Source: Crossaster papposus (Eukaryota; Echinodermata; Asteroidea; Velatida; Solasteridae). Taken from it: a stretch of DNA of 64,000 bases. The position numbers and the translations under genes were made by a program. The stretch spans positions 310,001 to 374,000 of the forward strand of contig JBAIAA010000398.1 in NCBI GenBank assembly GCA_037893245.1, written 5' to 3'. The notes under the pieces are model-generated. The model saw nothing but the letters and a program-made list of their open reading frames with translations, did no database searches and was not told the origin of the DNA. Of the stretch, positions 25,282-57,982 are shown piece after piece; the first letter of the stretch is position 1, and the number at the start of each line of letters is the position of its first letter.

Positions 25282-27192
25282 TTGTTTTCTCTGTGGTCCT
25301 TTAGCATTTCTATTCAATCGGTCTGCCCTGGAGGGTTGCTTTCCCTCTTGTTGGAAAGCTGCTAATATTGTTGCCATCCACAAGTCTGGTAAACAAATTA
25401 ATGTTGCTAATTACAGGCCCATTTCCTTGCTTCCTCAGGTATCAAAGGTTTTTGAAAAGATCTTGTGTGAGCAAATCATGTGTCACGTCCAACCAGCCAT
25501 CTCTGAGCAGCAGCATGGTTTCATCTCCGGTAGAGATTGCTCCACTAACCTTACATCATTGCTGCAAGAGGCGTACCATGCTGTTGAACAGAGGGGGCAA
25601 TTGGATGTTATCTACACTGATTTCTCAAAGGCCTTTGATCGTGTCAATCATAATTTTCTCTTGCATAAGCTTTCATCCTACAATTTTCATCCCAATGTTC
25701 TTCTTTTGTTACGTAGTTATCTTACTGGTAGAAAACATAGAGTTATTGTTGATGGTCATTGTTCCAACTGGAGTACAGTGCCCTCTGGTGTTCCCCAAGG
25801 CTCAATTTTAGGACCTATCCTGTTCTCATTATTCGTTAATGATATCCCTCAGTGCTTAACAAATAAATGTTCACTATTTGCCGATGACCTGAAAGTTTTT
25901 CGTAAGATTAGTGGACCTGCTGATACATTTTCTTTACAGGAGGACTTGGACAGAATCATGTCTTGGTCTTCTACTTGGCAGCTATCTCTCAATTTCAATA
26001 AATGTAGTGTTCTTTCCCTGTCACTTAAGAAGAAACCCATCAGCGTCACTATACTCTAGGAGATAACGTGCTTAAAAGAGTCAGTGTACAGAAGGATCTT
26101 GGAATTTTTATTGACAGCAAGCTGACCTTTGTTCCCCATGTTAATTCATTAATTAAAAAGGTTAATCGTATGTGTGGTTTAGTTTGGCGTAACTTCCGCT
26201 CACTGAAGAATGAACATGTATTGCGTACTATGTATTGTTCACTTATTAAGCCCCATCTAGAGTATTGTACAGTAGTTTTTAATTATATCTCTGCACACTA
26301 GGCTCATAGGATTGAAAGAGTCCAACATCGTTTCCTGAATTTCATGTACAAGAATCTTAACAATTTTACCGGTACGAATAATATAGATTACCTTGAGTTA
26401 TGTGATCTCTACAGACTTCCTACTCTAAAGCACAGAAGAGATGTCAATGATTGTTTGTTTTTGTATAAACATTTTCATAATTGTTTTCACATTACAGATG
26501 CCAACCCTTACAGTTTACTCACTCCATCATGACGTACACAGCATACACCGGAACACATCCTCCATGTCCCATGGAGTCGCATTGAGGTGACGAAGCGTGG
26601 TTTGGTCTCAAGGATTTCCTCCACCTATAATGGGCTCCATGGGAAATGTGATGTGTTTGGTGCACCTTCCCTTAAGTCATTCCATATACAAGTATCCTGT
26701 GCCCTTTCAAGCATGTCTGTTTAGTATATGTTTAGCTTTTTTCTGTTGCATTTCACCTCTTGCCAATAACTTTCTCATAATTGATAATTTCATTCCAAGT
26801 TTGTCAGCCCCACACCCCCGACGGGTTTGTATAATTATCAATTGATTAAGTTACATGTATTTAATTTGGCCCAGTATAATTATTTTTCTGTCGTATTCCT
26901 CTATCTCTATCTTTGTATATTTTGCCTACCACTACCCAAGTTTTTGTCTGTTATTCCCCTGCCCAACCCACCACGTACATCCCCTGACCCCAAACCCCTC
27001 CCCACCTTCAACCTATCAACCCCCAAACTATCCTCATCCCCCGTTTTGTCCTACTCTTTGTGTTGTTTTACAAAGTAATTTACTACAGTTTGTATATTTT
27101 ATATCTATGTACTTGTTTTTATATATAAAGATATATTGTTTGTATGTTTATCCCATTCCTGTAATTGGCGGTTCCTCCGCTGTTGGAAGTGG

Positions 27193-32744: not shown

Positions 32745-32882
32745 ATACAACCGATGCCGTAAGCTTGTCCAACAATTGCAAGAGCGGAATGTTCTATTGT
32801 GCCAAAGGGGGTTGCATATCTCTCTCCTTTCTTTGCGACTTTATTCACCAGTGTTCAGATGGTTCAGATGAGGAGCATTGTG
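32745..32882 (+). CDS. Exon: LDLa module 1
   Basis: Acceptor TTTAAG, donor GTG|GTCAGT. Encodes CKSGMFYCAKGGC, then CDF and CSDGSDEEHC: six cysteines and the acidic calcium-binding pattern are present. Starts in phase 1, so an upstream coding exon exists. Confidence 0.88.
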
Positions 32883-35800
32883 GTCAGTATTCAACTAAGT
32901 GTAGACCAAAGTTAATAAAGCATTCCACATTTTTAAAAAGGAAAAATAGGCCTAGAACGTTTATGCGTACAAACATTTCACACGTACTGTGGACAATTGA
33001 CGTCCACATGATGCAGGAAGATGTTGATGATTGTGAACTTAAACACTTACACAGTCCGTTTCGCCCCTCTCTGAAAAAATTATTGAGGTTATCTGTAGCA
33101 ACATGAAGGGGAACACCTGTGTTGGCCCATATTATCAAATTTGGGGTTCAACTAATTTTCTGGAAGCAAAGAAAATGAGTATTTAGCTGTTTTTGTAACT
33201 ACATGAAGCCAAGGGAATGTTAACAGTACTAATGAAAGGTAAGATTGCCTGTACAGACAGTTTCTACAAAGTACCTAAAAATTTGAGATCGTGAAGCATT
33301 AATTTGGTGAAAGTTTTCAGAGTAGAAACGTATTTGTCTTTTGTAAATTCGCAAGGCACCGGATTTTATAGGTGTCCAAATTTCATGTGACACTGAGAAA
33401 GTGTTTAAGACCAGCCAGCCATATATTTATTAGCCGTTTAAAACCGGCCATTTGACGGGCTTCGACCAATGGGAATGGGTCAATTGTCTTGGGTATTTAC
33501 ATATTTTTCCTTGTTATGTCCTATTTAATCCATTTCACAGAATATCCACCCTGCCAGCCATCCGAGTTCATGTGCAGTAACGGTCAGTGTATTGAGAGAG
33601 AGAAGCAGTGTAACCTACATGTGGACTGTCTGGATAGATCAGATGAGATCAACTGTGGTAAGATACAACTCAATTTACAGTCTTACATTGGAGTCACAGT
33701 CAGTGTTTTGAGAGAGAGAAGCAGTGTAACCTACACGTGGACTGTCTGGATAGATCTGATGAGATCAACTGTGGTAAGATACAACTCAATTTACAGTCTT
33801 ACATTGGAGTCACAGTCGGTGTATTGAGAGAGAGAGAGAGAAGCAGTGTAACCTACACGTGGACTGTCTGGATAGATCTGATGAGATCAACTGTGGTAAG
33901 ATACAACTCAATTTACAGTCTTACATTGGAGTCACAGTCAGTGTTTTGAGAGAGAGGAGCAGTGTAACCTACACGTGGACTGTCTGGATAGATCAGATGA
34001 GATCAACTGTGGTAAGATACAACTCAATGTACAGTCTTACATTGGAGTCACAGTCAGTGTATTGAGAGAGAGAAGCAGTGTAACCTACATGTGGACTGTC
34101 TGGATAGATCAGATGAGATCAACTGTGGTAAGATACAACTCAATTTACAGTCTTACATTGGAGTCACAGTCAGTGTATTGAGAGAGAGAAGCAGTGTAAC
34201 CTACACGTGGACTGTCTGGATAGATCTGATGAGATCAACTGTGGTAAGATACAACTCAATTTACAGTCTTACATGGAGTCACAGTCGGTGTATTGAGAGA
34301 GAGAAGCAGTGTAACCTACACGTGGACTGTCTGGATAGATCTGATGAGATCAACTGTGGTAAGATACAACTCAATTTACAGTCTTACATTGGAGTCACAG
34401 TCAGTGTATTGAGAGAGAGAAGCAGTGTAACCTACATGTGAACTGTCTGGATAGATCAGATGAGATCAACTGTGGTAAGATACAACTCAATGTACAGTCT
34501 TACATTGGAGTCACAGTCAGTGTATTGAGAGAGAGAGAAGCAGTGTAACCTACACGTGGACTGTCTGGATAGATCTGATGAGATCAACTGTGGTAAGATA
34601 CAACTCAATTTACAGTCTTACATTGGAGTCACAGTCGGTGTATTGAGAGAGAGAGAGAGAGAAGCAGTGTAACCTACACGTGGACTGTCTGGATAGATCT
34701 GATGAGATCAACTGTGGTAAGATACAACTCAATTTACAGTCTTACATTGGAGTCACAGTCAGTGTATTGAGAGAGAGAAGCAGTGTAACCTACACGTGGA
34801 CTGTCTGGATAGATCAGATGAGATCCTCTTGAGCTAAACTAGGATGTTGGTTGGTGCAGAAATGGCTTCTCCAGCCGCGAGGTGCAAGTAAAATAGAACA
34901 GTAACACAAACAACGAAGACTGGCAACAGCCAGACAAACAGAGGGAGAAAAAAACCTACACGTGGACTGTCTGGGTAGACCAGATGAGAATTTACAGCCC
35001 ATTTTATTGGTTTTAGCATTTGCATACATATATATAAAAGTGTTTTTTAATACAAAGTTTGTGCTTGGCTGGGCTAAAATAGTCATGATACTCAAATTGA
35101 TAATTTTGTTCAAAGCAGATTGAGCTGTAATAGCCCTTTATTGGGGCCGTCACTTTAGGTTTTTATGGAGTTTTCTTTAGTTTCACAAACAGCTTGTTTA
35201 ACTAAACTTTATAGCTGTATCAGGCTTTCAAGTATTCCTTTGTTTTCCTACTTTTCCCTACTTTGCTCTTTCTTTTTCTTCAAATTCCTACTATGTACTA
35301 TATTTCTGACCCACAACTCTGATAAATAAAATGTCATAATATATTTACACTCCCAAGAGCTTATCAGACATAGTACAAGAGTTGTAAATACAGAACATGC
35401 CAAATGAGGCTTATGATGCTGTGGAAGTGGGTGAGTATAAATGAAAACTTCCCCTGGAAGCCTGCAAAAGTCTTACTTTTATCTTTTATGTTGGTGTTTA
35501 TTGTATGGTGATCCAAATTGTGTTAGTTTGAAGTGGTTTTTATTTGACATCCACAGACATTTGTCGTATGGCATTCCAGTGCTATGATAGTTCCTGCATA
35601 CCCCATCATGCAGTGTGTGACGCCACACAGGATTGCCCAGGGTTCATACGGGAGGATGAAGCGGGCTGTGGTAAGATCATTCACTCCTTAGATTTGTCTT
35701 CCTAGTATATAGGTCAATATTGACACAAGATAAACAATGAAAACATCTAAAACCCCATTTATACTGTCTTCCCAGGAAATTGGTCAATATTGACACAAGA

Positions 35801-38800
35801 TAAGCAATGAAAACATCTAAAACCCCAAAAGGCAGGGCTGTTTTATAATTTAAGTTGGAGCCTCCTAACTCAGGAAACCTCTAGTGGGATGTGGACAGCA
35901 TGAACATTCTGTAGGAATTACCGTTTTTTTATGGTCAAGTGCATCGCAAGTCAGTCACAAATTATCCAGATCTAAATTATGTCAACAACATTTTGTATTG
36001 AACTCTAACAATTTCTTTTCAAATAAACCACAAAATAAAACTTACCAGGGATGATGAATTAGGGTTTTAAAGACATTTAACAAAACAAAACAAAATAGTA
36101 AATAGTAAAAGTAATAAACTATTTACAGATTAAGGTAAAAATTACCAACCCTTCAAATTGTGGCTTATTTTTAGTTACAGGTCGTTTATACAATGTATGT
36201 AGCAAATTGACCATGAAGTGTTAAAGTTGAAATATAAGTGAATTTCTCCTAATCCTCTTATTGACCACAATGGTCGATTCCTTTTCTCAGCCTATTCTGC
36301 AGACTCTGACTTTCAGTGTGGTGCCCATCAGCTGCAATGCAACAACGGTGCCTGCGCCGACATGAGACACTGGTGCATTTACGACTTTGACGAGTTTGGG
36401 TACCAGACAGGCTGTCGCGATGTGACTCACCTTCGGTTTTGTGGTATGGTTCTACAAATATCTTGTTTGTTCATTTTTGTAGCGCCATAAGCACCTATTT
36501 TTCTGTTGTGGGTTCAAGTCCAGCGTAGGGTTTTGGTGCGTGTGCCCTTGGGCAAGACACTTTGTCACGCATTGCTTCTCTCCACCCAGTAGTGAAATGG
36601 GTATCTGTGAAGGCAGAGATGGTTATTGTGATTGATTTAGCTGCTTTGTGCCGAAAAGGCAGCATTGAGCTGTATACTCCCCAGAGAGCTGAGATGGTAT
36701 TTGGAATGTTTCATTGGCCCAATGAGCAGGGGTAATAATGATATCGCACCTTGATTAGCAATAGGCTATTGGTGCATACATGTGTGTGCATTTTTATAAA
36801 TACACATATTGTTGTTGCGAAAATTAACTTGATTACCATATTGTGTTTTGTGAACATTCCTAATAAAGTAAGGGTGTCCGTGATTTTTCAAAATTTAGAT
36901 TTTTTTTCGTAACAAATTTGGAAGGAATATAATGTACTCTAACAAATAAATTTGCTAATTGTTTGCATTGGCATGCCTTTACTACAGTTTTGATTTTTTT
37001 TTTTTTTATCATCGCTGAAATCGCGCACTGTAGTTCAGAAAGTTTTAAGCGAAAGGTTATAAACATTCATGGATGCTAATTTAGGTAATTGACAGGTACG
37101 GATTACGAGTCTGCGCTGCGGTGTATACCGTACAATTCAATATCACATACAAATCTCTGAACACGCGGTACATACGAAAGTACATCCTAGATCAATACAC
37201 ACGCCTCTGGGCTGAACTCACAGCATTGTAAATACCTCCCATCGGGCCCCTCTATTGTCCTCTTTTGTTTGTATTTTAAAGTTTTTGGAAGACCTGTATG
37301 TTTTGTTCATGAATCTCAATAGTTAGCGTTTTACATGCAGTGCCTTCACCTACAAGTGCCCTGGTCCTACTGTATTCCCCTCTTTCTGTTCATTTACAGA
37401 GCGTTTTACATGCAGTGCCTTCACCTACAAGTGCCCTGGTCTTTCTGTTCAGTTACAGAGCGTTTTACATGCAGTGCCTTCACCTACAAGTGCCCTGGTC
37501 CTACTGTATTCCCTCTCTCTGTTCATTTACAGAGTGTTTTACATGCAGTGCCTTCACCTACAAGTGCCCTGGTCCTACTGTATTCCCCTCTCTCTGTTCA
37601 TTTACAGAGCGTTTTACATGCAGTGCCTTCACCTACAAGTGCCCTGGTCCTACTGTATTCTCCTCTCTCTGTTCATTTACAGAGTGTTTTACATGCAGTG
37701 CCTTCACCTACAAGTGCCCTAGTCCTACTGTATTCCCCTCTTTCTGATCATTTACAGAGTGTTTTACATGCAGTGCCTTCACCTACAAGTGCCCTGTTCC
37801 TACTGTATTCCCCTCTTTCTGTTCATTTACAGAGCGTTTTACATGCAGTGCCTTCACCTTAAGTGCCCTAGTCCTACTGTATTCTCCTCTCTCTGTTCAT
37901 TTACAGAGCGTTTTACATGCAGTGCCTTCACCTACAAGTGCCCTGGTCCTACTGTATTCCCCTCTCTCTGTTCATTTACAGAGCGTTTTACATGCAGTGC
38001 CTTCACCTACAAGTGCCCTGGTCCTACTGTATTCTCCTCTCTCTGTTCATTTACAGAGTGTTTTACATGCAGTGCCTTCACCTACAAGTGCCCTAGTCCT
38101 ACTGTATTCCCCTCTTTCTGATCATTTACAGAGTGTTTTACATGCAGTGCCTTCACCTACAAGTGCCCTGTTCCTACTGTATTCCCCTCTTTCTGTTCAT
38201 TTACAGAGCGTTTTACATGCAGTGCCTTCACCTTAAGTGCCCTAGTCCTACTGTATTCTCCTCTCTCTGTTCATTTACAGAGCGTTTTACATGCAGTGCC
38301 TTCACCTACAAGTGCCCTGGTCCAACTGTATTCCCCTCTCTCTGTTCATTTACAGAGCGTTTTACATGCAGTGCCTTCACCTACAAGTGCCCTAGTCCTA
38401 CTGTATTCTCCTCTCTCTGTTCATTTACAGAGCGTTTTACATGCAGTGCCTTCACCTACAAGTGCCCTAGTCCTACTGTATTCCCCTTTCTCTGTTCATT
38501 TACAGAGCGTTTTACATGCAGTGCCTTCACCTACAAGTGCCCTAGTCCTACTGTATTCCCCTCTCTCTGTTCATTTACAGAGCGTTTTACATGCAGTGCC
38601 TTTATGCACCTACAAGTGCCCTGGTCCTACTGTATTCCCCTCTCTCTGTTCATTTACAGAGCGTTTTACATGCAGTGCCTTTATGCACCTACAAGTGCCC
38701 TGGTCCTACTGTATTCCCCTCTCTCTGTTCATTTACAGAGCGTTTTACATGCAGTGCCTTCATGCACCTACAAGTGCCCTGGTCCTACTGTATTCCCCTC

Positions 38801-41800
38801 TCTCTGTTCATTTACAGAGCGTTTTACATGCAGTGCCTTCACCTACAAGTGCCCCCGATCCTACTGTATTTTCCTCTCTCTGTTCATTTACAGAGCGTTT
38901 TACATGCAGTGCCTTCACCTACAAGTGCCCTGGTCCTATTGTATTCCCCTTTCTCTGTTCATTTACAGAGCGTTTTACATGCAGTGCCTTCACCTATAAG
39001 TGCCCCCAGTCCTACTGTATTCCACTCTCTCGACGCTGTGACAACGTGTCGGACTGTCCAAACGGAGAAGATGAAATCTCATGTGGTGAGTTCAATTGAT
39101 GCTGACCAAAATTTGTTGGCAAATAATTTGCAATTTGGTGGAAAAGACTTAAAAATTGGTTGTCATTTTCTTAAATGTCCATCCATTGTTCATAATTATT
39201 ATGTACACAAATTATCTATTAAAAATTTAGGATTGTATCAGAAACTTATTATTAGACGGAAATTTGACTTGTGAATATAATTTGCCTCTAAGTGTATTTG
39301 TAATAATGTCAGTGACAAAGCTAATTGACCATGATATCTAATGAATTATTCACAGCAATGTTCTAAATCTTTGTGACTTCATGATAAATGTACATGTACA
39401 AAGTTTAAAGAATACACATTTAGGTTTAATCACTGAAATCGTGCCAGCTTCGCACATTACGTAGTGTTGGAGTTGCGCAAGAATTGTTTCACTGCAGTGT
39501 TTGTGTTAAAATTTACTTAAAGTACGACAACATGGATAGCCAACCACTGACAGTAAAACAAATGACTAATTTTGCTTGGTTTCAGAGGTCTCATTCTGCC
39601 CGTCAGGCAGCTATAAGTGTCGTAGTAGCCAGGTGTGTGTGAGTGAGAACCAGGTGTGCAATGGAGCCAAGGAATGTCCACGAGGGGATGATGAGCTCTT
39701 CTGTGGTGAGTACCGGTAGTTCCTTCAATCTGCCCTTCAGGCAGCTATAAGTGTCAAAGTAGCCAGGTGTGTGTGAGTGAGAACCAGGTGTGCAATGGAG
39801 CCAAGGAATGCCCACGAGGGGATGATGAGCTGTTCTGTGGTGAGTACCGGTAGTTCCTTCAATCTGCCCGTCAGGCAGCTATAAGTGTCGTAACTAGTAG
39901 CCAGGTGTGTGTGAGTGAGAACCAGGTGTGCAAAGGAGCCAAGGAATGCCCACGAGGGGATGATGAGCTCTTCTGTGGTGAGTACCGGTAGTTCCTTCAA
40001 TCTGCCTGTCAGGCAGCTATAAGTGTCGTAGCTAGTAGCCAGGTGTGTGTGAGTGAGAACCAGGTGTGCAAAGGAGCCAAGGAATGCCCACGAGGGGATG
40101 ATGAGCTGTTCTGTGGTGAGTACCGGTAGTTCCTTCAATCTGCCCTTCAGGCAGCTATAAGTGACGTAGTAGCCAGGTGTGTGTGAGTGAGAACCAGGTG
40201 TGCAATGGAGCCAAGGAATGTCCACGAGGGGATGATGAGCTGTTCTGTGGTGAGTACCGGTAGTTCCTTCAATCTGCCCGTCAGGCAGTTATAAGTGTTG
40301 TAGTAGCCAGGTGTGTGTTAGTGAGAACCAGGTGTGCAATGGAGCCAAGGAATGCCCACGAGGGGATGATGAGCTCTTCTGTGGTGAGTACCGGTAGTTC
40401 CTTCAATCTGCCTGTCAGGCAGCTATAAGTGTCGTAGCTAGTAGCCAGGTGTGTGTTAGTGAGAACCAGGTGTGCAACGGAGCCAAGGAATGCCCTCGAG
40501 GGGATGATGAGCTCTTCTGTGGTGAGTACCGGTAGTTCCTTCAATCTGCCTGTCAGGCAGCTATAAGTGTCGTAGCTAGTAGCCAGGTGTGTGTGAGTGA
40601 GAACCAGGTGTGCAATGGAGCCAAGGAATGCCCACGAGGGGATGATGAGCTCTTCTGTGGTGAGTACCGGTAGTTCCTTCAATCTGCCCGTCAGGCAGCT
40701 ATAAGTGTCTTAGTAGCCAGGTGTGTGTGAGTGAGAACCAGGTGTGCAATGGAGCCAAGGAATGCCCACGAGGGGATGATGAGCTCTTCTGTGGTGAGTA
40801 CCGGTAGTTCCTTCAATCTGCCCGTCAGGCAGCTATAAGTGTCGTAGTAGCCAGGTGTGTGTGAGTGAGAACCAGGTATGCAATGGAGCCAAGGAATGCC
40901 CACGAGGGGATGATGAGCTCTTCTGTGGTGAGTACCGGTAGTTCCTTCAATCTGCTCGTCAGGCAGCTATAAGTGTCGTAGTAGCCAGGTGTGTTAGTGA
41001 GAACCAGGTGTGCAATGGAGCCAAGGAATGTCTAAGAAGGGATGATGAACTCTTCTGTGGTGAGTACCGGTAGTTCCTTCAATCTGCTCGTCAGGCAGCT
41101 ATAAGTGTCGTAGTAGCCAGGTGTGTTAGTGAGAACCAGGTGTGCAATGGAGCCAAGGAATGCCCACGAGGGGATGATGAGCTCTTCTGTGGTGAGTACC
41201 GGTAGTTCCTTCAATCTGCCCGTCAGGCAGCTATAAGTGTCAAAGTAGCCAGGTGTGTGTTAGTGAGAACCAGGTGTGCAACGGAGCCAAGGAATGCCCA
41301 CGAGGGGATGATGAGCTCTTCTGTGGTGAGTACCGGTAGTTCCTTCAATCTGCCTGTCAGGCAGCTATAAGTGTCGTAGCTAGTAGCCAGGTGTGTGTGA
41401 GTGAGAACCAGGTGTGCAATGGAGCCAAGGAATGCCCACGAGGGGATGATGAGCTCTTCTGTGGTGAGTACCGGTAGTTCCTTCAATCTGCCCGTCAGGC
41501 AGCTATAAGTGTCTTAGTAGCCAGGTGTGTGTGAGTGAGAACCAGGTGTGCAATGGAGCCAAGGAATGCCCACGAGGGGATGATGAGCTCTTCTGTGGTG
41601 AGTACCGGTAGTTCCTTCAATCTGCCCGTCGGGCAGCTATAAGTGTCGTAGTAGCCAGGTGTGTGTGAGTGAGAACCAGGTATGCAATGGAGCCAAGGAA
41701 TGCCCACGAGGGGATGATGAGCTCTTCTGTGGTGAGTACCGGTAGTTCCTTCAATCTGCTCGTCAGGCAGCTATAAGTGTCGTAGTAGCCAGGTGTGTTA

Positions 41801-44800
41801 GTGAGAACCAGGTGTGCAATGGAGCCAAGGAATGTCTAAGAAGGGATGATGAACTCTTCTGTGGTGAGTACCGGTAGTTCCTTCAATCTGCTCGTCAGGC
41901 AGCTATAAGTGTCGTAGTAGCCAGGTGTGTTAGTGAGAACCAGGTGTGCAATGGAGCCAAGGAATGCCCACGAGGGGATGATGAGCTCTTCTGTGGTGAG
42001 TACCGGTAGTTCCTTCAATCTGCCCGTCAGGCAGCTATAAGTGTCAAAGTAGCCAGGTGTGTGTTAGTGAGAACCAGGTGTGCAACGGAGCCAAGGAATG
42101 CCCACGAGGGGATGATGAGCTCTTCTGTGGTGAGTACCGGTAGTTCCTTCAATCTGCCTGTCAGGCAGCTATAAGTGTCGTAGCTAGTAGCCAGGTGTGT
42201 GTGAGTGAGAACCAGGTGTGCAATGGAGCCAAGGAATGCCCTCGAGGGGATGATGAGCTCTTCTGTGGTGAGTACCGGTAGTTCCTTCAATCTGCCCGTC
42301 AGGCAGCTATAAGTGTCAAAGTAGCCAGGTGTGTGTTAGTGAGAACCAGGTGTGCAACGGAGCCAAGGAATGCCCACGAGGGGATGATGAGCTCTTCTGT
42401 GGTGAGTACCGGTAGTTCCTTAAATCTGCCTGTCAGGCAGCTATAAGTGTCGTAGCTAGTAGCCAGGTGTGTGTGAGTGAGAACCAGGTGTGCAACGGAG
42501 CCAAGGAATGCCCACGAGGGGATGATGAGCTCTTCTGTGGTGAGTACCGGTAGTTCCTTCAATCTGCCTGTCAGGCAGCTATAAGTGTCGTAGCTAGTAG
42601 CCAGGTGTGTGTGAGTGAGAACCAGGTGTGCAAAGGAGCCAAGGAATGCCCAGGAGGGGATGATGAGCTCTTCTGTGGTGAGTACCGGTAGTTCCTTCAA
42701 TCTGCCTGTCAGGCAGCTATAAGTGTCGTAGCTAGTAGCCAGGTGTGTGTGAGTGAGAACCAGGTGTGCAAAGGAGCCAAGGAATGCCCTCGGGGGAATG
42801 ATGAGCTTTTCTGTGGTGAGTACCGGTAGTTCCTTCAATCTGCCCGTCAGGCAGCTATAAGTGTCGTAGTAGCCAGGTGTGAGTGAAAGCCAGGTGTGCG
42901 AGCCAGACAGAATAATTTCATGGGGTGTTATACCAATACAATATTCCGAAGTGATCAGATTATCTTGTCTTGTCTTGTTTCAGTGTGAGGGGTTGGTTGT
43001 TCCCCCACCTTTCTCTGTAGCCCACATCGCGAGTGGCCTTCGGCCTTGTGATCGGCAATTTTCATTAATTTTGTAGTAATAATTTGGTGGATAAAATGCA
43101 GCTTCTCTTTGGGAATAATATTATAGTATAAAATATTAGAGTACTTTGTACTATATTTACAGGTGTAGACTGTCCTGATGGGTGTCAATGCATTGGCCTA
43201 TCCTTCACATGTGTAGGAGTAGACTGGAACCAGACCAAAGCAGAAAACTTACCAGATACTCTAAGGAAATTGTAAGTCGGACCCTTTTGTTACCAGGTTG
43301 CGCCGGGATTATTTTAACATCACCGAACCGAGGCGCGCGATTATTTTTAACAAAACTCGATCCGAGGCGTGTTCAAGCCGATGGTACCGGGAAACACACC
43401 CACGCATTTTCGGCCTTGCTCGCTGCTGACAGACATTTCCAGCCTTGCTCGGGACACAACTGCAGTTTTTCCTTTTAACTTTGTCGGGTGAATTCTTGTA
43501 TACAAATGTGTCGAGCCTTGTGGGTAAAAAAAGTGCCCTAATCGTTCCTTTTCAAAATGTTGTTTTTGTGCGGTTTTTTTTGGTTTTTTTGGGGAGGGCC
43601 TTATAAATCAATCTAGACGTTGTTTTTTGCTTTTCAGAATTGTGAGTAACCTCTTAGTGACCGGAACTATGCAGAGACTAAGACGGGATGTGTCTAACCA
43701 CAACGCAACCATGGCAGATGTTTTATTCATTCAATTTGACAGGTTCCACTTCTTATTTGAGCTGTAAGCATACATCACATTCTATCTAATACCACACCTG
43801 AGTAGATCCTTGTCAGCTGATTGGTGGATCGTTGACACATGTCACTGAATTATATTGTTGTCTCAATAAGCCAGCTTGGTATTCAATTGGACAGGTTCCA
43901 CTTCTTATTTGAGCTGTAAGCATATACATCACATTCTATCTAATACCACACCTGAGTAGATCCTTGTCAGCTGATTGGTGGATCGTTGACACATGTCACT
44001 GAATTATATTGTTGTCCCAATAAGCCAGCTTGGTATTCAATTGGACAGGTTCTACTACTTATTTGAGCTGTAAGCATACATCACATTCTATCTAATACCA
44101 CACCTGAGTAGATCCTTGTCAGCTGATTGGTGGATTGTTGACACATGTCACTGACTTATATTGTTGTCCCAATAAGCCAGCTTGGTATTCAATTGGACAG
44201 GTTCCACTTCTTATTTGAGCTGTAAGCATACATCACATTCTATCTAATACCACACCTGAGTAGATCCTTGTCAGCTGATTGGTGGATTGTTGACACATGT
44301 CACTGAATTATATTGTTGTCACATTAAGCCAGCTTGGTATTCAATTGGACAGGTTCCACTTCTTATTTGAGCTGTAAGCATACATCACATTATATCTAAT
44401 ACCACACCTGAGTAGATCCCTGTCAGCTGATTGGTGGATTGTTGACACATGTCACTGAATTATATTATTGTCCCAATAAGCCAGCTTGGTATTCAATTGG
44501 ACAGGTTCAACTTCTTGGTATTCCAACTGCGCATGAGTACAACAAGATTTGCCGGCTATGGGGGACGTGGTAACCTAATCTGCATTTTGGGCATTTTTTT
44601 TTTTTACAAAAAATGCAAATAAAGAATGTTTGTGAGTGTGATGGTAAAAAAATTAATTATGAGGTGACAGATGGTATGTTCTATTCCATGAGGCGAAGCC
44701 GAGTGGAATAGAACATTCCATCTGTTACAGAATGAAATTATTCTTTCCATTGCACAAACGTGAAACGATCATTATTTGTTTTATACAACATCTGAACAAA

Positions 44801-47800
44801 TCCTTGCAAGCTGATTGGTCAGAGCGCGACCATGCAATAAAGTTCTTTTCACTGTTGAATAGATCTGTTTTGCGGTGAGGTATCTGGGCCGGGTGAGGAA
44901 ACAAATAATTCAATGCACATGATCAACGATATACCAATCAGATGATGGGAACTACTAAGATGTTGAATAAAAGAGGATGGAAACATTTGTTTAAACAAAA
45001 GTTTGAACACACAAAACTCCTGAAAACACTTTACTGTCCAAACGTATTGATACAAATGTTACTTTAGAACGCGAGGATCTCTGTTGTGCTTTTGCAAGCA
45101 TAGAACGAATGTTTATCTCGAAAGAAAAATTGTCCAATTGTATGTGTACATGCGCAGTTGCAGAATACCGAGCTAGCTTGTTGCACAGCGCAGCCGCACT
45201 GCAAAAATATCAGTTCTATTAAATGAAAAAACTTACATTGCTTGGTTACACTCTGACCAATCAGATGACAAGGATTTATGAAAGCATTGTATTTTTTGTA
45301 TGAATGATTTTTATTGGTGCAACGCAAAGAACAATTTTGTCACCACTAAACTCAGATTTTATCAATTTTCTAGTTTATAGCTTATGATTACTATATGTAG
45401 TGAGCATGGTTCAAATAAATTACTACAAGCACAAACAAGAATGAAGTGAAACAATGACACAATACCTAGCAAGAATGCCAGCTATTACGATCTAGTACCT
45501 GTTCATAGAAAAACAAAATATCTTTCAAATCTTTTAAAATTTGTTCTTTTTGATGCAGAGATATCTCTGCCAATCAGATTGAGATTTTAGACCCAGGGAT
45601 GTTCCGTCATCAGACAAACCTCTTCTCACTGTAAGTATGTACTACCCTGCTGTCATGACTTGACTGCGAACAATTATTTGTATACTAAATCGTTTCCTAT
45701 GTAAGTTTTAAGTATAAAGCAATATATGGGACGGAGAGAACCCCCTCCTTTGTGGTGGTCATTGTGCTTGCGGAATGCTGTGGTTTCTTTTGAGATTTTT
45801 AGGGGGGGGGTGCGTTCAATAGTCTAGGGAGTGTATATATATGAGGGACTAAGGGGGGAGTCGCTCGGTCCCATATGTTGCTGGGTATACAAATGTGGTA
45901 TGAAGGAAAATTACGTACAAGGGGTGATTGATACTGGTGAGTTTGTGGCCTAAGTTTTAGAAAATCAAACACATTTATTTTACAACATAATTATTTTCCC
46001 TCCTACATTAACACACTTAATAATAATAATGATATTAGGCAGTTGTTATATAGTGCATGTATCTACGAAGACTTTCACGTTATTACCCCGGTCATTGGAC
46101 CCATAAAATATTCCTAATACCATCTCAGCTCCCTGGCGAGTATACAGGTCGCTGCTGCCATTTCGGTAAAAACAGCTGAATCAACCACAATAACCATCTC
46201 TGCCCTCACAGGTACCCAGTTACCAATGAGTGATAAATTGCCTTGCTCAAGGGCACACGCACCATAGTCCCAGGCCAGACTTGAACCCACAACCTGTAGC
46301 TTTACCTACAGATTACAAATTAAATGCTCCAGACCACGAGACCACGGCCCTCCACTTATAAGTCCAGTGGTCATGGAGCATTAGATTCCTTCTGTGTAGA
46401 ATGCTTCAGACCACGAGACCACGGCCCTCCACTTAGAAGTCCAATGGTCATGGAGCATTAGATTCCTTCTGTGTAGAATGCTTCAGACCACGAGACCACG
46501 GCCCTCCACTTATAAGTTCAGTGGTCATGGAGCATTAGATTCCTTCTGTGTAGAAGCCATTGTCTTGAGCCCCAGGAAGTGAAGCATCAATGACGTCATT
46601 ATCGGAGGCAAATTGGCAACCACCGAGCTCCTTCAACTTCGATACTTATATAATTTTGTATCTATGTCAAGAAGAGGAAATAAATGTGTTTGAAATGAAA
46701 ATTGGAAAGAGATCAGAGGATGCCAAATCAGGCGAAGAGCTAGGGTGAGTGTTTGAATGGTTTGAATCCACATTTCTGGATGACCATGGCCACTGTTGAC
46801 GTGTGGGCCAGAGCATTGTCCTGGTGGTAGAGCACCCATCTAGTCAGCTTCTCACATCCAATCTTTTAGATTTCCTCCTGTAGCTGTTTCAGGAGATCAG
46901 CGTAGTAGGCCCTGGTGATAGTGTGACCCTTTTATAAACTGTAAAGCTCTGCCGTAAACCACAAACGTATCAATCACCTCTCGTAGGAAAGATTAAATAT
47001 AAAAAGAAATAATGTACATCTATTTTTGTGGTTGCAGGTCAGTTGCAAATAACAAACTGTACAATCTGGAACCAGGAACATTTGAAGGCTTGCGATGGCT
47101 TCACAAACTGTAAGTTGATTTCAAAGTAACTGAAAAACACACAAAATACCAGTGGTCGCATGGTGTTCCGAAATACAGTACCCTCTGGAGACATGAACAC
47201 AATGTGTACAATGGAGACAAAACGTCTCCGGAGGGTAAATTTCTATAGATGAATAGGTCTCCATTGGGAATTTCACGAATTAGATTTTTGGATTTTACTT
47301 AAATTACTCAAAAACTAGGATTAGGATGTGGGTTAGGGTTAGTGTTTGGGTTAGGGTATAATATAGGGTATATTGGGTAGAAATTTGAACCCAGGAAAAA
47401 AATTATGGTTAAAATGGGAGCATTTTGAAAAACGTGCTCGACTTTCTAACCATTTTGTACACGAGAACAAAGCCATGTCTCCACAGTGATACAAAAATGC
47501 GAATGCGTGTGCATGCATTATTTACAATGAGAATGTACACCTAACATCGCATGACATGACGTCACACAGCACTCGGTATTAGCTCTGTGTTTGTTCTCAG
47601 TTGTTGCCATCTATCACAGCTTTGAAGGTTTGCCAACTATGTGCTGTGCATGGCACTGTAAACGAGGTTTACTTTAGTGACGTGGTTGACTTTCCAGAAC
47701 CCCACTTTCATGGCTCCTATAACCACAGCATTTCGTGCTTACGATCAACATTTTGCGCTAACAATTCTGCTCTTATCCTAAAAACACAGAATCCTTTCAT

Positions 47801-50602
47801 GTTTATTGGATGTGCGCATGCGCAGAAGCCACAATTCCTCGCTAACCCATGAAATATGCTTTGTGTAAATTTTAAATTTTCTGCTACGGTAATTAAGCAG
47901 AGGTTTTTTCGCAACAGTAATTGCCATGCAATTGCATGGGCCTGGGTCACACGGACCAGTGAGAGAGTCCTAGCTACAAAACAAACTGTATGTATTTTGT
48001 TTATACAAGTTCTCAAGCTGTTTCCTATAATTTTTTAAAGTCGCATTAGTTTTTTGTCATCAATAATGTTCAATGTTTTTTCATGTTTGTTCATCAGAGA
48101 TCTATCTGGCAATCCTCTGGTTCAGATCCAACCCGGGGCATTCCATCATCTGCAAAGCCTTCCTTACCTGTGAGTCAACCATCATTTAAGTACCTGTCCA
48201 ACATAAACCTTTAATGTTACGTAATTATCATTATAACACCTCACTCACAGATTCTGTGTCTCGATTGGCCGAGAGCGCGGCACGTGTCACTTGCTATTTT
48301 TACTATTTTTTACTTGCGCTATCCAAAAAGACTATACCACGCAAAAAAGACTATGCACATAGCAACACACGAACTATGCGCATAGCAACGAAAGCGTGAC
48401 TGAAACCCAGACGTGTGTTTTGGTGCATTGCGTAAACATTGCTCTATCACCTTCGCACCCGTTCATCAAGGCAACAAAGTACACGTATGATCGAGAGACG
48501 TATAATTCGGAGATTTTTTGTCATTACTATACTTTCAGGAAGCTTAAATTGTGCAGAATCTGTGAGTGAGGTGTTATAAAACAAATATTGACTGCTTTAT
48601 TTCGCGGTATAGTAAAACTAGCCTCCCGAGGTGATCCATGGAGCATTCTATTTTCCCTCGGCTTCGCCTTGGGAAAATAGAATGCTCCATGGATCACCTC
48701 GGGAGGCTAGTTTTACTAAAGCAGTCAATATTTGTATACTGTAATTTGTTTGGTAGCGTGGGTGGTGCAGTGCACAAAGCACTGGCCTCTTACCTCTTAC
48801 TACTGGTCTAGGTTTGATTCCCGGCTCAGGTCATGTGTGAGTATCGTTGATTGTTGATTCTTGTCTGCTCTTTGGATTTCAAAGACGTAAATGAGAGTAA
48901 ATTGTTTGGCTAAAACCTGTCATGTCGGGGCACACTACTATAATATGGCTGAATAACGGCTGTTGCTTATAATATTAATTCAACGTTTTGGACCAATAGT
49001 TTCAACAATAATCACTTTGAGCCAGGGCTTCTATTCCATCCTCTAACAGTGACTTTATCTTCATAACTTGCAACAAGATCTGCGAATCAAGAATTGGCTT
49101 AACGTCACACATGAGGATGGCATCAATTTAGGCAGTGATCATCATCACACATCTTGTTTGCTGAACACTCATCCATCGAAGCGACGGGAGAATCCATATG
49201 AATTAACTTTCATCTTAGGGATTTACTTTTCTGCCGTTTATTTATTTACAGGGATCTTCACGGTCTTTCCATCAGCCACATATATTCAGGGACATTTGGT
49301 GGGCTGACGTCACTTCACAGGCTGTAAGTAAGACACTGCAAGACAGTGTTTTTCTTCAATTTTTGACATGTTCCAAATAATCTACCTTTACAGTATTCTA
49401 CTTAAAATATGCCAATTTAAATTTAAAAAATGATTGTGTTTAATGATTGATATACTGACTGTTTGTCCTTTTTAACATCATTTTGTATTGATTTATTTGT
49501 ATTGATTTATATTTATATTTATATTTATATTGTAATGTTTCCAGTGATCTAAGCAACAACAATATCTTGGAGCTGGAGTCGGGAACCTTTGATGATCTTC
49601 CGCTAGTCACACTCCTGTAAGTCAGAGGCTGAAGGGGGGAAGAGGGGGATTGGTGTCTTAAGAATTGGTTAAAATGTTCACATAATTGTAACATTCTTGT
49701 GACAGTAGCACAAGAGACAGTGTTGTGGCTTTACATACATATAATACTTGATAGGCAGAGTTTAAATATTGGGTTTTTCCTTCACTGACCTATTTTATAA
49801 ACATTCCATACTCGGTGTTGTCCCAAGAGATTAGGAGAGAACCCCCCCCCCCCCCCCCCCCCCCCTCGCTTCTGACTGGTTTTGGACGTTTGCTACCGTT
49901 TGGTAGCAAAAATCAAGATCATAACGAAACACATTCCAGTCGCTTGGTATGGTGGCTCTACGAAGCTGTCCAAGCCACGAAGGCCTTGACAGTGGTGCGA
50001 TCTAAGGCAATTTCTGATCACTTCATCCAATTTATTTTTTGCAATTTCTTTCGCAAAATCTGTTCTTGGTTATTCTGAGCATGGAGAAAGGTGTTCTGAG
50101 GTATAGAATCAAATGTACGGCTATATGTGACCTGTTCCAACGAAACCCGGACAAAGTCGCACAATGTGTTTTGTCACAATGTACTCCTGAAGTCATTTCG
50201 GGATGGATTTTACCATTTTGAGGTTTTAGGTTTTCCTAAGTCACTCACTATTAATCTACAATCTCCTCAAATTTGAACAAAATCCGTCTACCAGAAGTGT
50301 GTTTTTTTGTCAATTTTGTGAAACATTTGTGTACAGAAATAATACGCTTTTCTGAACTTCAAAGCTGTTTATCTCATAATTAGGTTGTCGGGGTTTTATC
50401 AATAAATCCAGACCCCAGGGAAGATAGGGTGGGGGTACATATGTAAATGATACATCATTTTAAAGCTGAGAACCTAGAGAATTTGAAAATAGCAAAATCT
50501 GAAAAACTAAAAAGTCGACTTTGTCCGGGTTTCGTTGGAACAGGTCACATATATGGGGGGGAGACACGAACAGTATGATATCCTTCCCCCCCCCCCCCCG
50601 TC

Positions 50603-50636
<34 letters not shown>

Positions 50637-53260: not shown

Positions 53261-53293
<33 letters not shown>

Positions 53294-56200: not shown

Positions 56201-57283
56201 ACTCCGTCATCAGTTTCCACATGGAAAAAACTTGGATTATTTGTTTTTTTGTAACGTCTGAGATCCCATGATGCAGTAGTGGTGAATCTATCCGACTCGT
56301 ATAATGTGGTGGTACATGTATGTGATTTTGTGGTCAAATGGTACTTGTGTCCATAGGCAAGATGTACTTAAACTGCAATTTCCTTCAGACCATAGAATGA
56401 TCCCTAAAATGTTTACCAATGCATCATGAAATTTTGCATATAGAAGGTTTTAAGGATGTAGATTCCAACCACAAAAATATTGTTACTAAACTGAACATTT
56501 TATGATTATACATTATTATACAGGGTGCCGAGCAGAATTGTGACAAATTTGCATGCGCGTGTGACATTACGTAAATAATCGCATGACGTAACATGCATAA
56601 TCGCTGACTCATTGGTCAAGTTTCTGTTAAGTCACGTAGTTATACACGCAACGTCACATGCGCATGCAAATGCGACACAATTCTGATCAGATTCGTTCAA
56701 GCGATATGTGAGTTAGCCAAGATGGCCTATTCGGAGGTCATGGCGTACGTTAGAGGGCGCCCGCATCTGCGGGCTAGGCGATTAGGACGTCTTGCAACCA
56801 AGACTAGTTGACTAGCTGCGGGCTGGTGCTGGGGGCTGACGTAATCAGCGTTTAGGTTATCATGCTTGAAAGAGGCTGACCACGGCCTGATTTCATTGGT
56901 GGATTCCAGGCCGAATGATGATGGTTTTAATGTTCCCCCTAACTTTCTGATTGCAAAACACCCGTAAAGTTTTTGAATAAAAACAAATGCTTGACCATTA
57001 GGTATTTGGTATTTTTCTTGCACTGCTGCCTGTGCTTAATTCCAGAGCATTTTGCCAGAACGCCTCACAAATATGAACTTAGAATGTCTTTTAAAATTCT
57101 CTTTTAATCTCTTGACAGCCAACAGATAGTGAATGGCACGCCAATCTAGTCTTGCCTCGAGCGTCCCCAGACCAGAGCTTCTCCATGCTAGTTGATGAGG
57201 ATGCTCTAAGCCAAGATGAACAGAGACTGGGAGACGTTATGCGATACATCAGGGACAAGTTGGCTTCATCTAGTGTCTGCTAA
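32745..57283 (+). CDS. Relaxin-receptor / GRL101-like LDLa-LRR GPCR gene (LGR type C), 5' end missing
   Basis: Spliced gene with exons I place at 32745-32882, 33541-33657, 35557-35670, 36291-36443, 38969-39085, 39586-39705, 43163-43271, 43638-43763, 45559-45630, 47038-47109, 48098-48169, 49252-49323, 49545-49616, 50718-50789, 51809-52902, 55964-56187 and 57119-57283. All junctions have AG acceptors and GT donors. Phases are consistent: phase 1 between LDLa exons, phase 2 between LRR exons, phase 1 then 0 in the tail. Domain order is six LDLa, LRR cap, divergent leucine-rich segment, six LRRs, hinge, seven helices, cytoplasmic tail. The family contains RXFP1/2 and molluscan GRL101; it acts at the plasma membrane and binds relaxin/insulin-like peptides in characterised members. 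The ligand here is inference. The first exon is not found and further exons inside introns cannot be excluded. Confidence 0.88.
33541..33657 (+). CDS. Exon: LDLa module 2
   Basis: Acceptor TTTCACAG, donor TGTG|GTAAGA, phase 1 at both ends. Encodes CQPSEFMCSNGQCIEREKQC and CLDRSDEINC, a canonical module. Its 3' half and donor are the template of the tandem array that follows. Confidence 0.92.
33580..34830 (+). repeat. 116-bp array built from LDLa exon 2 edge plus donor site
   Basis: About ten extra copies of a unit of about 116 bp: the 3' half of LDLa exon 2 from GTCAGTGTATTGAGAGAG, its donor TGTG|GTAAGA and about 45 bp of intron. Units vary in GA dinucleotide number and in CACGTGG/CATGTGG. 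The first half of the LDLa module is missing in each copy, and the AG that precedes each unit does not give the LDLa frame in phase 1, so they are unlikely to be usable exons. A degenerate last piece lies at 34953-34990. Confidence 0.92.
35557..35670 (+). CDS. Exon: LDLa module 3
   Basis: Acceptor CATCCACAG, donor TGTG|GTAAGA, 114 bp, phase 1. Encodes CRMAFQCYDSSCIPHHAVC and CPGFIREDEAGC; the calcium site is less regular than in modules 1 and 2. Confidence 0.85.
36291..36443 (+). CDS. Exon: LDLa module 4 (long, irregular)
   Basis: Acceptor CTTTTCTCAG, donor TGTG|GTATGG, 153 bp, phase 1. Encodes CGAHQLQCNNGACADMRHWC and a long last loop to LRFC that lacks the SDE motif, so calcium binding is doubtful. 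Confidence 0.82.
36480..36830 (+). mobile_element. tRNA-derived SINE in an intron
   Basis: Shares with the reverse copy at 46015-46330 the B-box-like GGGTTCAAGTC, then GTGTGCCCTTG, GCAGAGATGGTTATTGTG, AGCTGAGATGGTATT and CCAATGA. It lies just past the donor of LDLa exon 4, and the head is shortened. Confidence 0.7.
37335..38968 (+). repeat. 75-bp array built from LDLa exon 5 acceptor edge
   Basis: About 21 copies of a 75-bp unit: pyrimidine tract, acceptor TTTACAG, then the first half of LDLa exon 5 (AGCGTTTTACATGCAGTGCC and ACCTACAAGTGCCC). Each unit thus carries an acceptor. A 374-bp stretch with the TCTGATCATTTACAG variant is repeated (around 37745 and 38119), so groups of units have duplicated too. 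The period is divisible by three and the last units are in frame with the true exon. Confidence 0.92.
38969..39085 (+). CDS. Exon: LDLa module 5
   Basis: Acceptor CATTTACAG, donor TGTG|GTGAGT, 117 bp, phase 1. Encodes CSAFTYKCPQSYCIPLSRRC and CPNGEDEISC. It differs from the array units by one extra base (TGCCCCCAGTCC against TGCCCTGGTCC), which sets the correct LDLa frame. A GAG-preceding acceptor is repeated about 75 bases upstream many times, so alternative 5' ends are possible. Confidence 0.9.
39586..39705 (+). CDS. Exon: LDLa module 6
   Basis: Acceptor GGTTTCAG, donor TGTG|GTGAGT, 120 bp, phase 1. Encodes CPSGSYKCRSSQVCVSENQVC and CPRGDDELFC, canonical. Template of the following array. 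Confidence 0.92.
39706..42890 (+). repeat. 134-bp array built from LDLa exon 6 plus donor site
   Basis: About 23 extra copies of a unit of about 134 bp (variants of 130 and 138). Each unit holds almost the whole LDLa exon 6, its donor TGTG|GTGAGT and about 20 bp of intron (ACCGGTAGTTCCTTCAATC). The original acceptor TTTCAG is not copied; the position is occupied by TTCAATCTGCC. Some units have 4-bp changes (CGTAGCTAGTAGCC) that would break the frame. An 804-bp block of six units is repeated in tandem (about 40691-41494 and 41495-42298). Confidence 0.93.
43163..43271 (+). CDS. Exon: LRR N-terminal cap
   Basis: Acceptor ATTTACAG, donor AAATT|GTAAGT; begins in phase 1 and ends in phase 2. Encodes CPDGCQCIGLSFTC and NLPDTLRKL, the cysteine cap and first strand of an LRR domain. 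The change of phase here marks the switch from LDLa to LRR modules. Confidence 0.88.
43293..43445. mobile_element. TTAA-type piggyBac-like MITE, truncated copy in intron
   Basis: Starts CCAGGTTGCGCCGGGATT and follows the other two copies through CTCGATCCGAGGCGTG and CTGCTGACAGACATTTCC, then diverges. The far inverted end is missing. It lies about 20 bp past a splice donor. Confidence 0.75.
43638..43763 (+). CDS. Exon: divergent leucine-rich segment
   Basis: Acceptor CTTTTCAG, donor GAGCT|GTAAGC, 126 bp, phase 2 at both ends. Encodes IVSNLLVTGTMQRLRRDV, an NAT sequon, and ADVLFIQFDRFHFLFEL. It does not fit the 24-residue LRR consensus well. The phase match and the hydrophobic spacing support it as a coding exon. 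Confidence 0.7.
43733..44516 (+). repeat. 152-bp array built from the 43763 donor edge
   Basis: The exon end (GACAGGTTCCACTTCTTATT, GAGCT|GTAAGC) plus about 120 bp of intron is present five times with ends at about 43763, 43915, 44069, 44221 and 44373, then a partial copy at 44500. Donors are conserved in all complete copies. Confidence 0.9.
44663..44727. repeat. Short palindrome in intron
   Basis: GTGACAGATGG, then TGTTCTATTCCA, pairs with TGGAATAGAACA and CCATCTGTTAC around a small GGCGAAGCC loop. A second pair of complementary segments around GATTGGTCAGAG (44814) and CTCTGACCAATC (45250) may delimit a larger element. Confidence 0.8.
45559..45630 (+). CDS. Exon: LRR 1
   Basis: 72 bp, phase 2 to phase 2. 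Encodes LDISANQIEILDPGMFRH and TNLFSL, one 24-residue LRR of the LxLSxNxIxxLxxGxF type. Confidence 0.9.
45719..45882. mobile_element. G-run MITE in intron
   Basis: Ends GCAATATATGGGACGGAG and CTCGGTCCCATATGTTGC are imperfect inverted repeats. The inside, read on the minus strand, matches the G-run MITE found in the receptor units and at 51198-51370. Confidence 0.65.
46015..46330 (-). mobile_element. tRNA-derived SINE, reverse orientation, in intron
   Basis: Minus-strand reading gives a B box (GGGTTCAAGTC), the shared body of the 36480 copy and a terminal (ATT)n/(AAT)n tail at about 46018-46032. Confidence 0.75.
46331..46556. repeat. Tandem repeat of about 93 bp next to the SINE head
   Basis: Three copies of a unit containing AGACCACGAGACCACGGCCC and GGTCATGGAGCATTAGATTC. 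The first part is the complement of the SINE head, so the array was seeded at the SINE 5' end. Confidence 0.8.
47038..47109 (+). CDS. Exon: LRR 2
   Basis: 72 bp, phase 2. Encodes LSVANNKLYNLEPGTFEG and LRWLHKL. Confidence 0.9.
48098..48169 (+). CDS. Exon: LRR 3
   Basis: 72 bp, phase 2. Encodes LDLSGNPLVQIQPGAFHH and LQSLPYL, a close match to the LRR consensus. Confidence 0.92.
48231..48579. mobile_element. Inverted-repeat element in intron
   Basis: Left end TTATAACACCTCACTCACAG and right end CTGTGAGTGAGGTGTTATAA are complementary. The inside has no gene and includes GATTGGCCGAGAGCGCG and CACGTG. Confidence 0.75.
48581..48735. repeat. Near-perfect palindrome, about 155 bp
   Basis: Directly next to the element above. 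Arms ACAAATATTGACTGCTTTA and TAAAGCAGTCAATATTTGT, continuing through CTAGCCTCCCGAGGTGATCC to a loop at CTCGGCTTCGCCTTGGG. The loop sequence resembles that of the palindrome at 11502-11666. Confidence 0.9.
48752..48960 (+). mobile_element. tRNA-derived SINE in intron
   Basis: A-box-like GTGGTGCAGTGC and B-box-like GGTTTGATTCCC about 50 bp apart, followed by an unrelated body. It differs from the SINE families at 30714 and 36480. Confidence 0.6.
49252..49323 (+). CDS. Exon: LRR 4
   Basis: 72 bp, phase 2. Encodes LDLHGLSISHIYSGTFGG and LTSLHRL; the usual asparagine is replaced (HGLS in place of SxN). Confidence 0.88.
49545..49616 (+). CDS. Exon: LRR 5
   Basis: 72 bp, phase 2. Encodes LDLSNNNILELESGTFDD and LPLVTLL. 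Confidence 0.92.
50126..50549. mobile_element. TGTGACC-type MITE, copy B, in intron
   Basis: Starts TGTGACCTGTTCCAACG and ends CGTTGGAACAGGTCACA, with arms continuing through AAACCCGGACAAAGTCG. TATA lies on both sides. No open frame. Confidence 0.88.
50570..50660. repeat. Poly-C and CCGTCTCC low-complexity tract
   Basis: Long C runs broken by CGTCTCC, about 60 bp upstream of the LRR 6 exon. A similar C run is at 49843-49865. Length may be unreliable. Confidence 0.85.
50718..50789 (+). CDS. Exon: LRR 6
   Basis: 72 bp, phase 2. Encodes LDISNNSVSVFPQDLFLS and VTSLQTL, the last LRR before the hinge. Confidence 0.92.
51198..51370. mobile_element. G-run MITE in intron, with inverted ends
   Basis: GCACGATATGTGGCAGAG at the left and CTCTGCCACATATCGTGC at the right are exact complements. 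The inside has GAATTCCTGAGATTCCGGG, CAACACAAA and a G run, as in the receptor-unit copies. This copy shows the ends of the family most clearly. Confidence 0.85.
51809..52902 (+). CDS. Exon: hinge and seven-helix domain
   Basis: Acceptor CTCTCCAG, phase 2 start; donor ACAG|GTAATT, phase 1 end. The hinge KYLFCCMV, C, FSSCEDLMRNHILRAFIWIL is the RXFP-type junction. Helix motifs: GN in TM1, NLALSD in TM2, LDRFF at the end of TM3, W in TM4, CCWFP in TM6, NSSINPYLYT in TM7. The end has a 27-bp direct duplication encoding RSNGHSHTG twice. If the donor is not used, translation stops two codons later (GN, stop), giving a short-tail form. Confidence 0.95.
52921..53000 (-). mobile_element. tRNA-like SINE head, reverse orientation
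   Basis: On the minus strand: GGATAACTCAGTTGGTAGAG (A box), then GGAGGTCTTAGGTTTGAACC (B box), in tRNA order. The acceptor stem pairs only in part (CTGGA/TCCAG), so this looks like a SINE head and not a working tRNA gene. The extent of its body is unclear. Confidence 0.55.
53328..53966. mobile_element. TGTGACC-type MITE, copy C, in intron
   Basis: Starts TGTGACCTGTCACCAC and ends GTAGTGACAGGTCACA; TATA at 53324-53327 and 53967-53970. Inner arms AGATTAAAGTCGCACAATAT resemble those of copy B. Longest of the three at about 640 bp; no coding capacity. Confidence 0.85.
53971..55963. other. Long intron remainder, no feature
   Basis: Part of the 3.1-kb intron between the seven-helix exon and the tail exons. 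I see no exon, repeat array or RNA gene here. Confidence 0.5.
55964..56187 (+). CDS. Exon: cytoplasmic tail, part 1
   Basis: Acceptor ATTCCACAG, donor AAAGAG|GTTTGG, phase 1 to phase 0. Encodes MTPIHTPPTRRKEPSCGRF, LLSVLLSEDDSPVMKLSMDD, and EAMRILHGRGLCLVGKAED. The tail is longer than that of vertebrate relaxin receptors. No known domain is recognised. The donor is weaker than the others in the gene. Confidence 0.75.
57119..57283 (+). CDS. Exon: cytoplasmic tail, part 2, with stop
   Basis: Acceptor TCTTGACAG, phase 0. Encodes PTDSEWHANLVLPRASPDQS, LVDEDALSQDEQRLGDVM, RYIRDKLASSSVC and stops at 57281-57283. The phase fits exon 55964-56187. The last 147 bp is the template of three further copies. 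Confidence 0.8.
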   Translation, partial: PTDSEWHANLVLPRASPDQSFSMLVDEDALSQDEQRLGDVMRYIRDKLASSSVC

Positions 57284-57724
57284 TACACCAATCTAGTCTT
57301 ACCTCGAGCGTCCCCAGACCAGAGCTCCACCATGCTAGTTGATAAGGATGCTCTTAGCCAAGATGAACAGAGACTTAGAGACGTTATGCGATACATCAGG
57401 GACAAGTTGGCTTCATCTAGTGTCTGCTAATACACCAATCTAGTCTTGCCTCGAGCGTCCCCAGACCAGAGCTCCACCATGCTAGTTGATAAGGATGCTC
57501 TTAGCCAAGATGAACAGAGACTTAGAGACGTTATGCGATACATCAGGGACAAGTTGGCTTCATCTAGTGTCTGCTAATTCACCAATCTAGTCTTGCCTCA
57601 AGCGTCCCCAGACCAGAGCCTCTCCATGCTAGTTGATGAGGATGCTCTGAGCCAAGATGAACAGAGACTGGGAGACGTTATGCGATACATCAGGGACAAG
57701 TTGGCTTCATCCAGTGTCTGCTAA
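57137..57724 (+). repeat. 147-bp array of the terminal exon, four copies
   Basis: TAA codons at 57281, 57428, 57575 and 57722 are spaced exactly 147 bp. Each copy holds AATCTAGTCTT, the DEDALSQDEQ-type coding segment and the same stop. Copies two and three share AAGGATGCTCTTAG and ACTTAGAGACG variants. Only the first copy can be translated in the main frame; the rest are 3' UTR unless alternative acceptors are used. Confidence 0.92.
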
Positions 57725-57982
57725 TACATTAGTTCAAGTCAGAGTTTAATTCAAAACGAATGGCGGATAAACATGTCACGAGTAAGGCCTGAAATGCGAA
57801 CAAAAATTTCATCTTATAAATCCCCCCTCCCCCCCAACAAAAACACACCCTACTTTAAGTTGGAGGAACTTGTATTGTATAAATATCTTGTATATGAAAT
57901 AATCAATATTCTTATTATAATGTTGTTTAAAATAATATGTATACTGTTTTAAGTGTTATTCGAACAACAAGTTTTTAGTGTT

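Follow-up and report, generated by a model that had tools for sequence, protein, structure and literature searches.

The closest described counterparts of the structures reported here are the mirages of amphioxus, tandem copies of intron-exon boundaries that have been described in Adh3, in the globin genes BflGb6 and BflGb9, in PGBD5 and in troponin C (PMC3087553; PMC3902484), the founding paper being Canestro 2002 as cited in both of these reports. Their units measure 10-72, 150-160, 157, 60 and 108 bp (PMC3087553; PMC3902484). RT-PCR and the Adh3 data are described as suggesting that regular splicing persists (PMC3087553), the number of repeats is unequal between two globin haplotypes and Adh3 is reported to be somatically unstable (PMC3087553; PMC3902484), and the copy numbers of PGBD5 are unequal between two assemblies (PMC3902484). 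In human genes of segmental duplications, minisatellite expansion at exon-intron boundaries has been described with 27 intron modifications and a bias to long units, and the repeats reportedly give rise to novel introns and to alternative transcripts among recent paralogs (PMC2812944). PMC3087553 cites work by Rogers, by Zhuo and by Gao and Lynch on the creation of introns by tandem duplication of AG/GT segments.

Here we describe five tandem arrays in a receptor gene of the sea star Crossaster papposus, within a window of 64,000 nucleotides. As far as the two amphioxus reports describe them, mirages are copies of a donor or acceptor boundary with one authentic copy, with AG/GT in many copies and with concerted evolution within clusters, and it is in these features that the likeness lies. 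The present case differs in its sea star host, in having four such arrays in one gene together with an array at the stop codon, and in its copy numbers, array 3 having 24 donors and an array at an EGF exon end elsewhere in the genome some 41 units. The host lies outside the cephalochordates, the known range of mirages, that range being no defining feature of them, and no report of mirages in echinoderms was found in the literature searched, which included few subscription papers. The kind of structure is already known, though little studied; to us the novelty lies in the group of the host, in how many arrays one gene holds and in the copy numbers. With the human internal tandem repeats, as far as they are described in PMC2812944, the locus shares minisatellite expansion at exon-intron boundaries, whereas the sea star gene is single and has no demonstrated new intron.

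Results

The gene that carries the arrays (Table 1) consists of six LDLa-type exons, LRR exons, a 7TM exon and a C-tail. Exon edges were set by eye on the sequence and then tested by frame and GT/AG. With one copy per array used, the spliced frame is open across 17 exons for 969 codons plus a stop, one base being assumed ahead of the first exon for phase; the 5' start exon was sought and not found. Pfam recognized Ldl_recept_a, LRR_8 and 7tm_1 in that order, with 5 of the 6 LDLa-type exons reaching E 0.001, and the top PDB match of a shortened query was relaxin receptor 1 (E 2.6e-79). The combination of LDLa, LRR and rhodopsin-type 7TM within one protein is that of the type C LGRs, and the order of these parts is identical to that in relaxin receptor 1, from which the sea star gene differs in its six LDLa-type exons. 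GRL101-like receptors are of the same type. When the genome was searched with a 1001-base piece of the 7TM exon, the search returned the gene itself and 7 further matches at 70-81%, and no second haplotype was found in that search.

Other elements of the window were noticed by eye. Six long GPCR-like frames, near copies of one another, occupy 2066-29223 on the minus strand, and several of them carry 90 bp repeats in the tail; LINE reverse-transcriptase-like frames lie between the GPCR-like copies at 6411-7865 and 25271-26059. The intron after LRR exon 4 contains an inverted repeat at 48610-48725.

Table 1. Features of the receptor gene, in window positions
Feature	Position	Strand	Description
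Receptor gene, LDLa-LRR-7TM, relaxin-receptor-like	32745..57284	+	17 exons found; frame and GT/AG check
LDLa exon 2, real copy	33541..33657	+	donor at 33658
Array 1	33576..34828	+	116 bp unit x10.6; LDLa exon 2 end, donor and 42 intron bases
Intron-only duplication, counter-example	35695..35827	+	70 bp x1.9; begins 24 bases within the intron that follows LDLa exon 3
Array 2	37324..39031	+	75 bp unit x21.1; polypyrimidine tract, acceptor and LDLa exon 5 start
LDLa exon 5, real copy	38969..39085	+	frame and GT/AG
LDLa exon 6, real copy	39586..39705	+	donor at 39706
Array 3	39591..42906	+	134 bp unit x24.4; nearly whole LDLa exon 6, donor and ~20 intron bases
Divergent LRR exon, real copy	43638..43763	+	donor at 43764
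Array 4	43729..44519	+	152 bp unit x5.2; last 35 exon bases, donor and intron
Intron-only array, counter-example	46323..46555	+	77 bp x3.0
Last coding exon with the stop, real copy	57119..57284	+	frame check
Array 5	57145..57727	+	147 bp unit x4.0; end of coding sequence with stop

The initial annotation had claimed five tandem arrays in this gene, each with a given unit and signal, and Tandem Repeats Finder followed by splitting into copies confirmed them all. Tandem Repeats Finder placed arrays 1-5 at 33576-34825, 37440-39031, 39591-42886, 43729-44516 and 57141-57728, and copy splitting shifted the start of array 2 to 37324. Every array has a single copy that continues into the remainder of its exon, and its other copies lie in the intron or beyond the stop. 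Counting the real site, there are 10 donors in array 1, 22 acceptors in array 2, 24 donors in array 3 and 5 donors in array 4; the final partial copies of arrays 1 and 4 end within the exon part. By eye, the 7-base motif CTCTCTC of array 2 occurs in both the exon and the polypyrimidine tract, as shared sequence at the joint. About 130 bases past the end of array 1, at 34955-34990, a short diverged copy of its exon part was also seen by eye.

That every unit spans an exon boundary proved right for arrays 1, 3 and 4 (donor) and array 2 (acceptor) and wrong for array 5, which spans the stop instead and crosses no splice junction because it is wholly inside the last exon; its copies 2-4 sit beyond the stop codon. 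Of the features of a mirage, boundary-spanning units are present in arrays 1-4 and absent from array 5, and we found an authentic boundary copy in the 969-codon frame (whose start exon was not found) as well as AG/GT in the copies. The units are unrelated, the sole cross-match up to E 1 being 26 bases at 81% (E 0.33), which bears out the view that the arrays arose as separate events. Intron-only arrays with long units number two in the gene.

Besides the real sites, arrays 1-4 contain 9, 21, 23 and 4 decoys, respectively, 57 in all, each carrying AG or GT. Use of a decoy would lead to a premature stop at 36 of 36 donors (arrays 1, 3 and 4) and at 17 of 21 acceptors (array 2), that is, at 53 of 57 sites, whereas the remaining 4 of 21 acceptors preserve the frame. 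Since 53 of the 57 would truncate the protein, routine use of the decoys is unlikely, and the arrays most likely leave the receptor protein unchanged, as judged from the frames.

The intact signals raise a different reading, put forward in the initial annotation, in which decoy splice sites are under selection or the arrays serve to diversify the ectodomain of the receptor. Speaking for it are the signals themselves, the 4 in-frame acceptors, the nine copies of array 3 beyond the real one that encode an unbroken LDLa motif, and the finding that boundary repeats in human can change splicing (PMC2812944). It nevertheless has to contend with the 53 truncating decoys, because of which selection for them is unlikely, with an array 5 that has no splice site, with like duplications in a myosin gene (see below) and with a column variability that is not consistently lower at the signals: variable columns were fewer in the intron part than in the exon part of array 3 (0/19 vs 21/109, P 0.04), more frequent in the intron part of array 2 (8/22 vs 7/53, P 0.03) and without difference between the two parts in arrays 1, 4 and 5. 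We consider this reading very improbable. The related claim that each array conserves its signal is true as far as presence goes and weak as a sign of constraint, the copies differing from one another by a mean of only 2-7% (averages 93-98% alike). The signals are intact, therefore, through youth: the copies are alike, the blocks within them are recent, and no dip in variability singles out the signals.

Array 3 contains an 804 bp block present twice (802/804 identical) and array 2 a 374 bp higher-order block, a shift of 374 bp being identical over 300 bases. Read from the sequence, these blocks mark recent block exchange, and such block duplications suggest that the arrays are unstable in length. 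Tandem arrays are error-prone in assembly, and a false expansion of the arrays would be an artefact of that kind; yet the differences among copies are patterned, private variants and higher-order blocks included, an old decayed case exists elsewhere in the genome (contig C195, below), and the amphioxus PGBD5 repeats survived re-examination of the data (PMC3902484). We give hardly any credence to an artefact.

Similar duplications were found in other genes. The acceptor and exon start of an LDLa exon on C195 are present three times, the outermost AG now being GG. An EGF_CA exon (Pfam) on C465 has an 87 bp unit carrying the donor; the EGF matches span 1200739 to 1204400 (~3.6 kb), corresponding to an array of ~41 units. 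This array could be coding because its frame is open for 1245 codons; otherwise it is a mirage of great length. The myosin gene on C907 has an acceptor duplication of 129 bp x2, a donor duplication of 83 bp and an acceptor duplication of 90 bp, the latter two flanking one intron, and its exons spliced at the real sites match Myosin_head (Pfam) without net gap. The donor case has its present GTAAGT at the joint of the duplication, inside sequence common to the exon, and by eye TAAGTTGACC occurs in both exon and donor. A rule that the distal copy is always without splice signal was considered and rejected; it fits arrays 1-4 and fails in both C907 acceptor cases.

Repetition at other scales was also seen. 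Near-identical LDLa exons recur every ~1.4-2.5 kb at C56:570001-610000, a larger-scale exon or gene duplication, and an identical LDLa donor-end word recurs in ~110-135 kb steps on C15 and C157 (4 and 3 places), resembling large segmental tandem duplication. Of the 150 fn3 matches listed, 44 fall at C220:819235-841777 in a steady ~519-base spacing with near-equal scores; this is a tandem array whose unit is an entire exon with an intron, perhaps in a titin-like gene. As to the assembly, C1841 is the mitochondrial genome (16,330 bases), in which AAA and ATA fit the echinoderm code (table 9) and, by eye, COX1, ND4L, COX2, ATP6, COX3, ND3, ND4, ND5 and CYTB share a strand, with ND1, ND2 and ND6 encoded opposite to them (minus for ND1 and ND2). 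The opposite orientation of ND1 and ND2 marks sea stars, and this gene order suggests one here. Two places on C8, a contig that extends beyond 5.2 Mb, gave COX1-type matches with no stops in standard frames, and C8 is perhaps a bacterial contig within the animal assembly.

The initial annotation had further suggested a mutational process that favours exon ends. The rival account holds that these are ordinary minisatellites placed at random, their overlap with exons arising from a gene dense in small exons and from a pattern-seeking reader. In the gene itself, the junction-crossing arrays number 4 of 6, vs 1.08 expected under random placement (P 0.011), counting copies of at least 3 and units of at least 60, each array being reduced to a single copy (17.7 kb of gene) and the gene having been picked post hoc; inclusion of the 70 bp duplication gives 4 of 7 (P 0.018). 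These counts stand against random placement, and so does the like pattern that amphioxus independently shows (PMC3087553); the intron-only arrays stand in its favour.

Outside the gene, automatic self-comparison points the other way. Among 21 loci chosen for LDLa or myosin exons (178 kb, 156 junctions), 22 local duplications were detected, of which 2 cross a known junction, vs 2.05 expected with one unit placed at random (P 0.62) or 5.93 with the whole array placed at random (P of 2 or more 0.997), the junctions of the EGF exon and of two C907 exons being absent from the script. LDLa junction windows outside the gene (60 bases; a copy on the same strand at most 2 kb away, with a score of at least 30) showed no excess, with a nearby copy at 18 of 106 vs 81 of 800 random positions, and 17 of the 18 positives belong to the one duplicated exon family on C56. 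By eye, 0 of 58 LDLa matches in 18 loci lie inside an array, a count that missed the C195 acceptor case seen on closer look. Each of these three results agrees with random placement.

Hand inspection gave a higher figure. For units of 60-250 bp outside the gene, 5 of 10 duplications cross an exon end vs ~1.8 expected (P 0.020), and when those of the window are pooled with them, an exon edge is spanned in 9 of 16 long-unit cases vs 2.9 expected (P ~0.0006), a count that is partly post hoc, on a subset picked after viewing. Two ~400 bp duplications and ten short-unit arrays were left out of it, and the junction densities of the other loci were set by hand after viewing the data, so that the 9/16 result is a lead and not a test.

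The LDLa donor-end pattern matched 310 times in the whole genome vs 118 times for a reversed control; among the first 100 of the 310 matches listed, which stop before the contig of the window, no same-word pairs within 500 bases were seen by eye. The 150 listed of 2210 EGF_CA candidates, likewise inspected by eye, contained no whole domains repeated closely at regular intervals. The claim of a bias to exon ends draws support from the in-gene (4/6) and pooled (9/16) counts and is opposed by the automatic count (2/22) and the junction windows (18/106). Exon-edge preference is possible, and the evidence from these loci is mixed; random placement has, in our estimate, somewhat less than an even chance of being the whole explanation.

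Discussion

Arrays 1-4 are probably mirages, with array 5 a counterpart at the stop: duplications that took in an exon end and the splice signal next to it, or the stop in the case of array 5, and that multiplied later, the extra copies being nearly neutral. The process would start with a short tandem duplication whose unit takes in the exon end and the splice signal, or in array 5 the stop, perhaps aided at exon edges by short homology between exon and splice signal. Multiplication would follow by slippage and unequal exchange. Splicing would use the site of the joined copy, and the extra copies would be spliced out, nearly neutral and decaying with age. With lower confidence, we infer that long-unit duplications may begin at exon edges above chance. 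Two observations run against neutrality, the 4 in-frame acceptors among the 21 decoys of array 2 and the C465 EGF array with its 1245 open codons, and a neutral reading must allow for the human boundary repeats that give alternative splicing (PMC2812944).

The same duplications bear a likeness to the model of intron creation, as outlined in PMC3087553, in that internal duplications carry splice signals. Here, in contrast, the extra copies remain outside the coding sequence, and in the C907 myosin gene the present donor lies at the duplication joint.

A bolder proposal, which we think rather unlikely, is that echinoderms and cephalochordates share a mutational process with a preference for exon edges, where it produces tandem duplications roughly as long as an exon, seeded by short sequence common to exon and splice signal or by transcription- and splicing-linked breaks; the receptor gene and the C907 myosin gene would then be hot spots.

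The presence of mirages in several unrelated sea star genes suggests a wider habit of duplication. Such a habit would feed decoy splice sites, errors in gene models and perhaps new introns, and the preference for exon edges becomes testable in any annotated long-read echinoderm genome.
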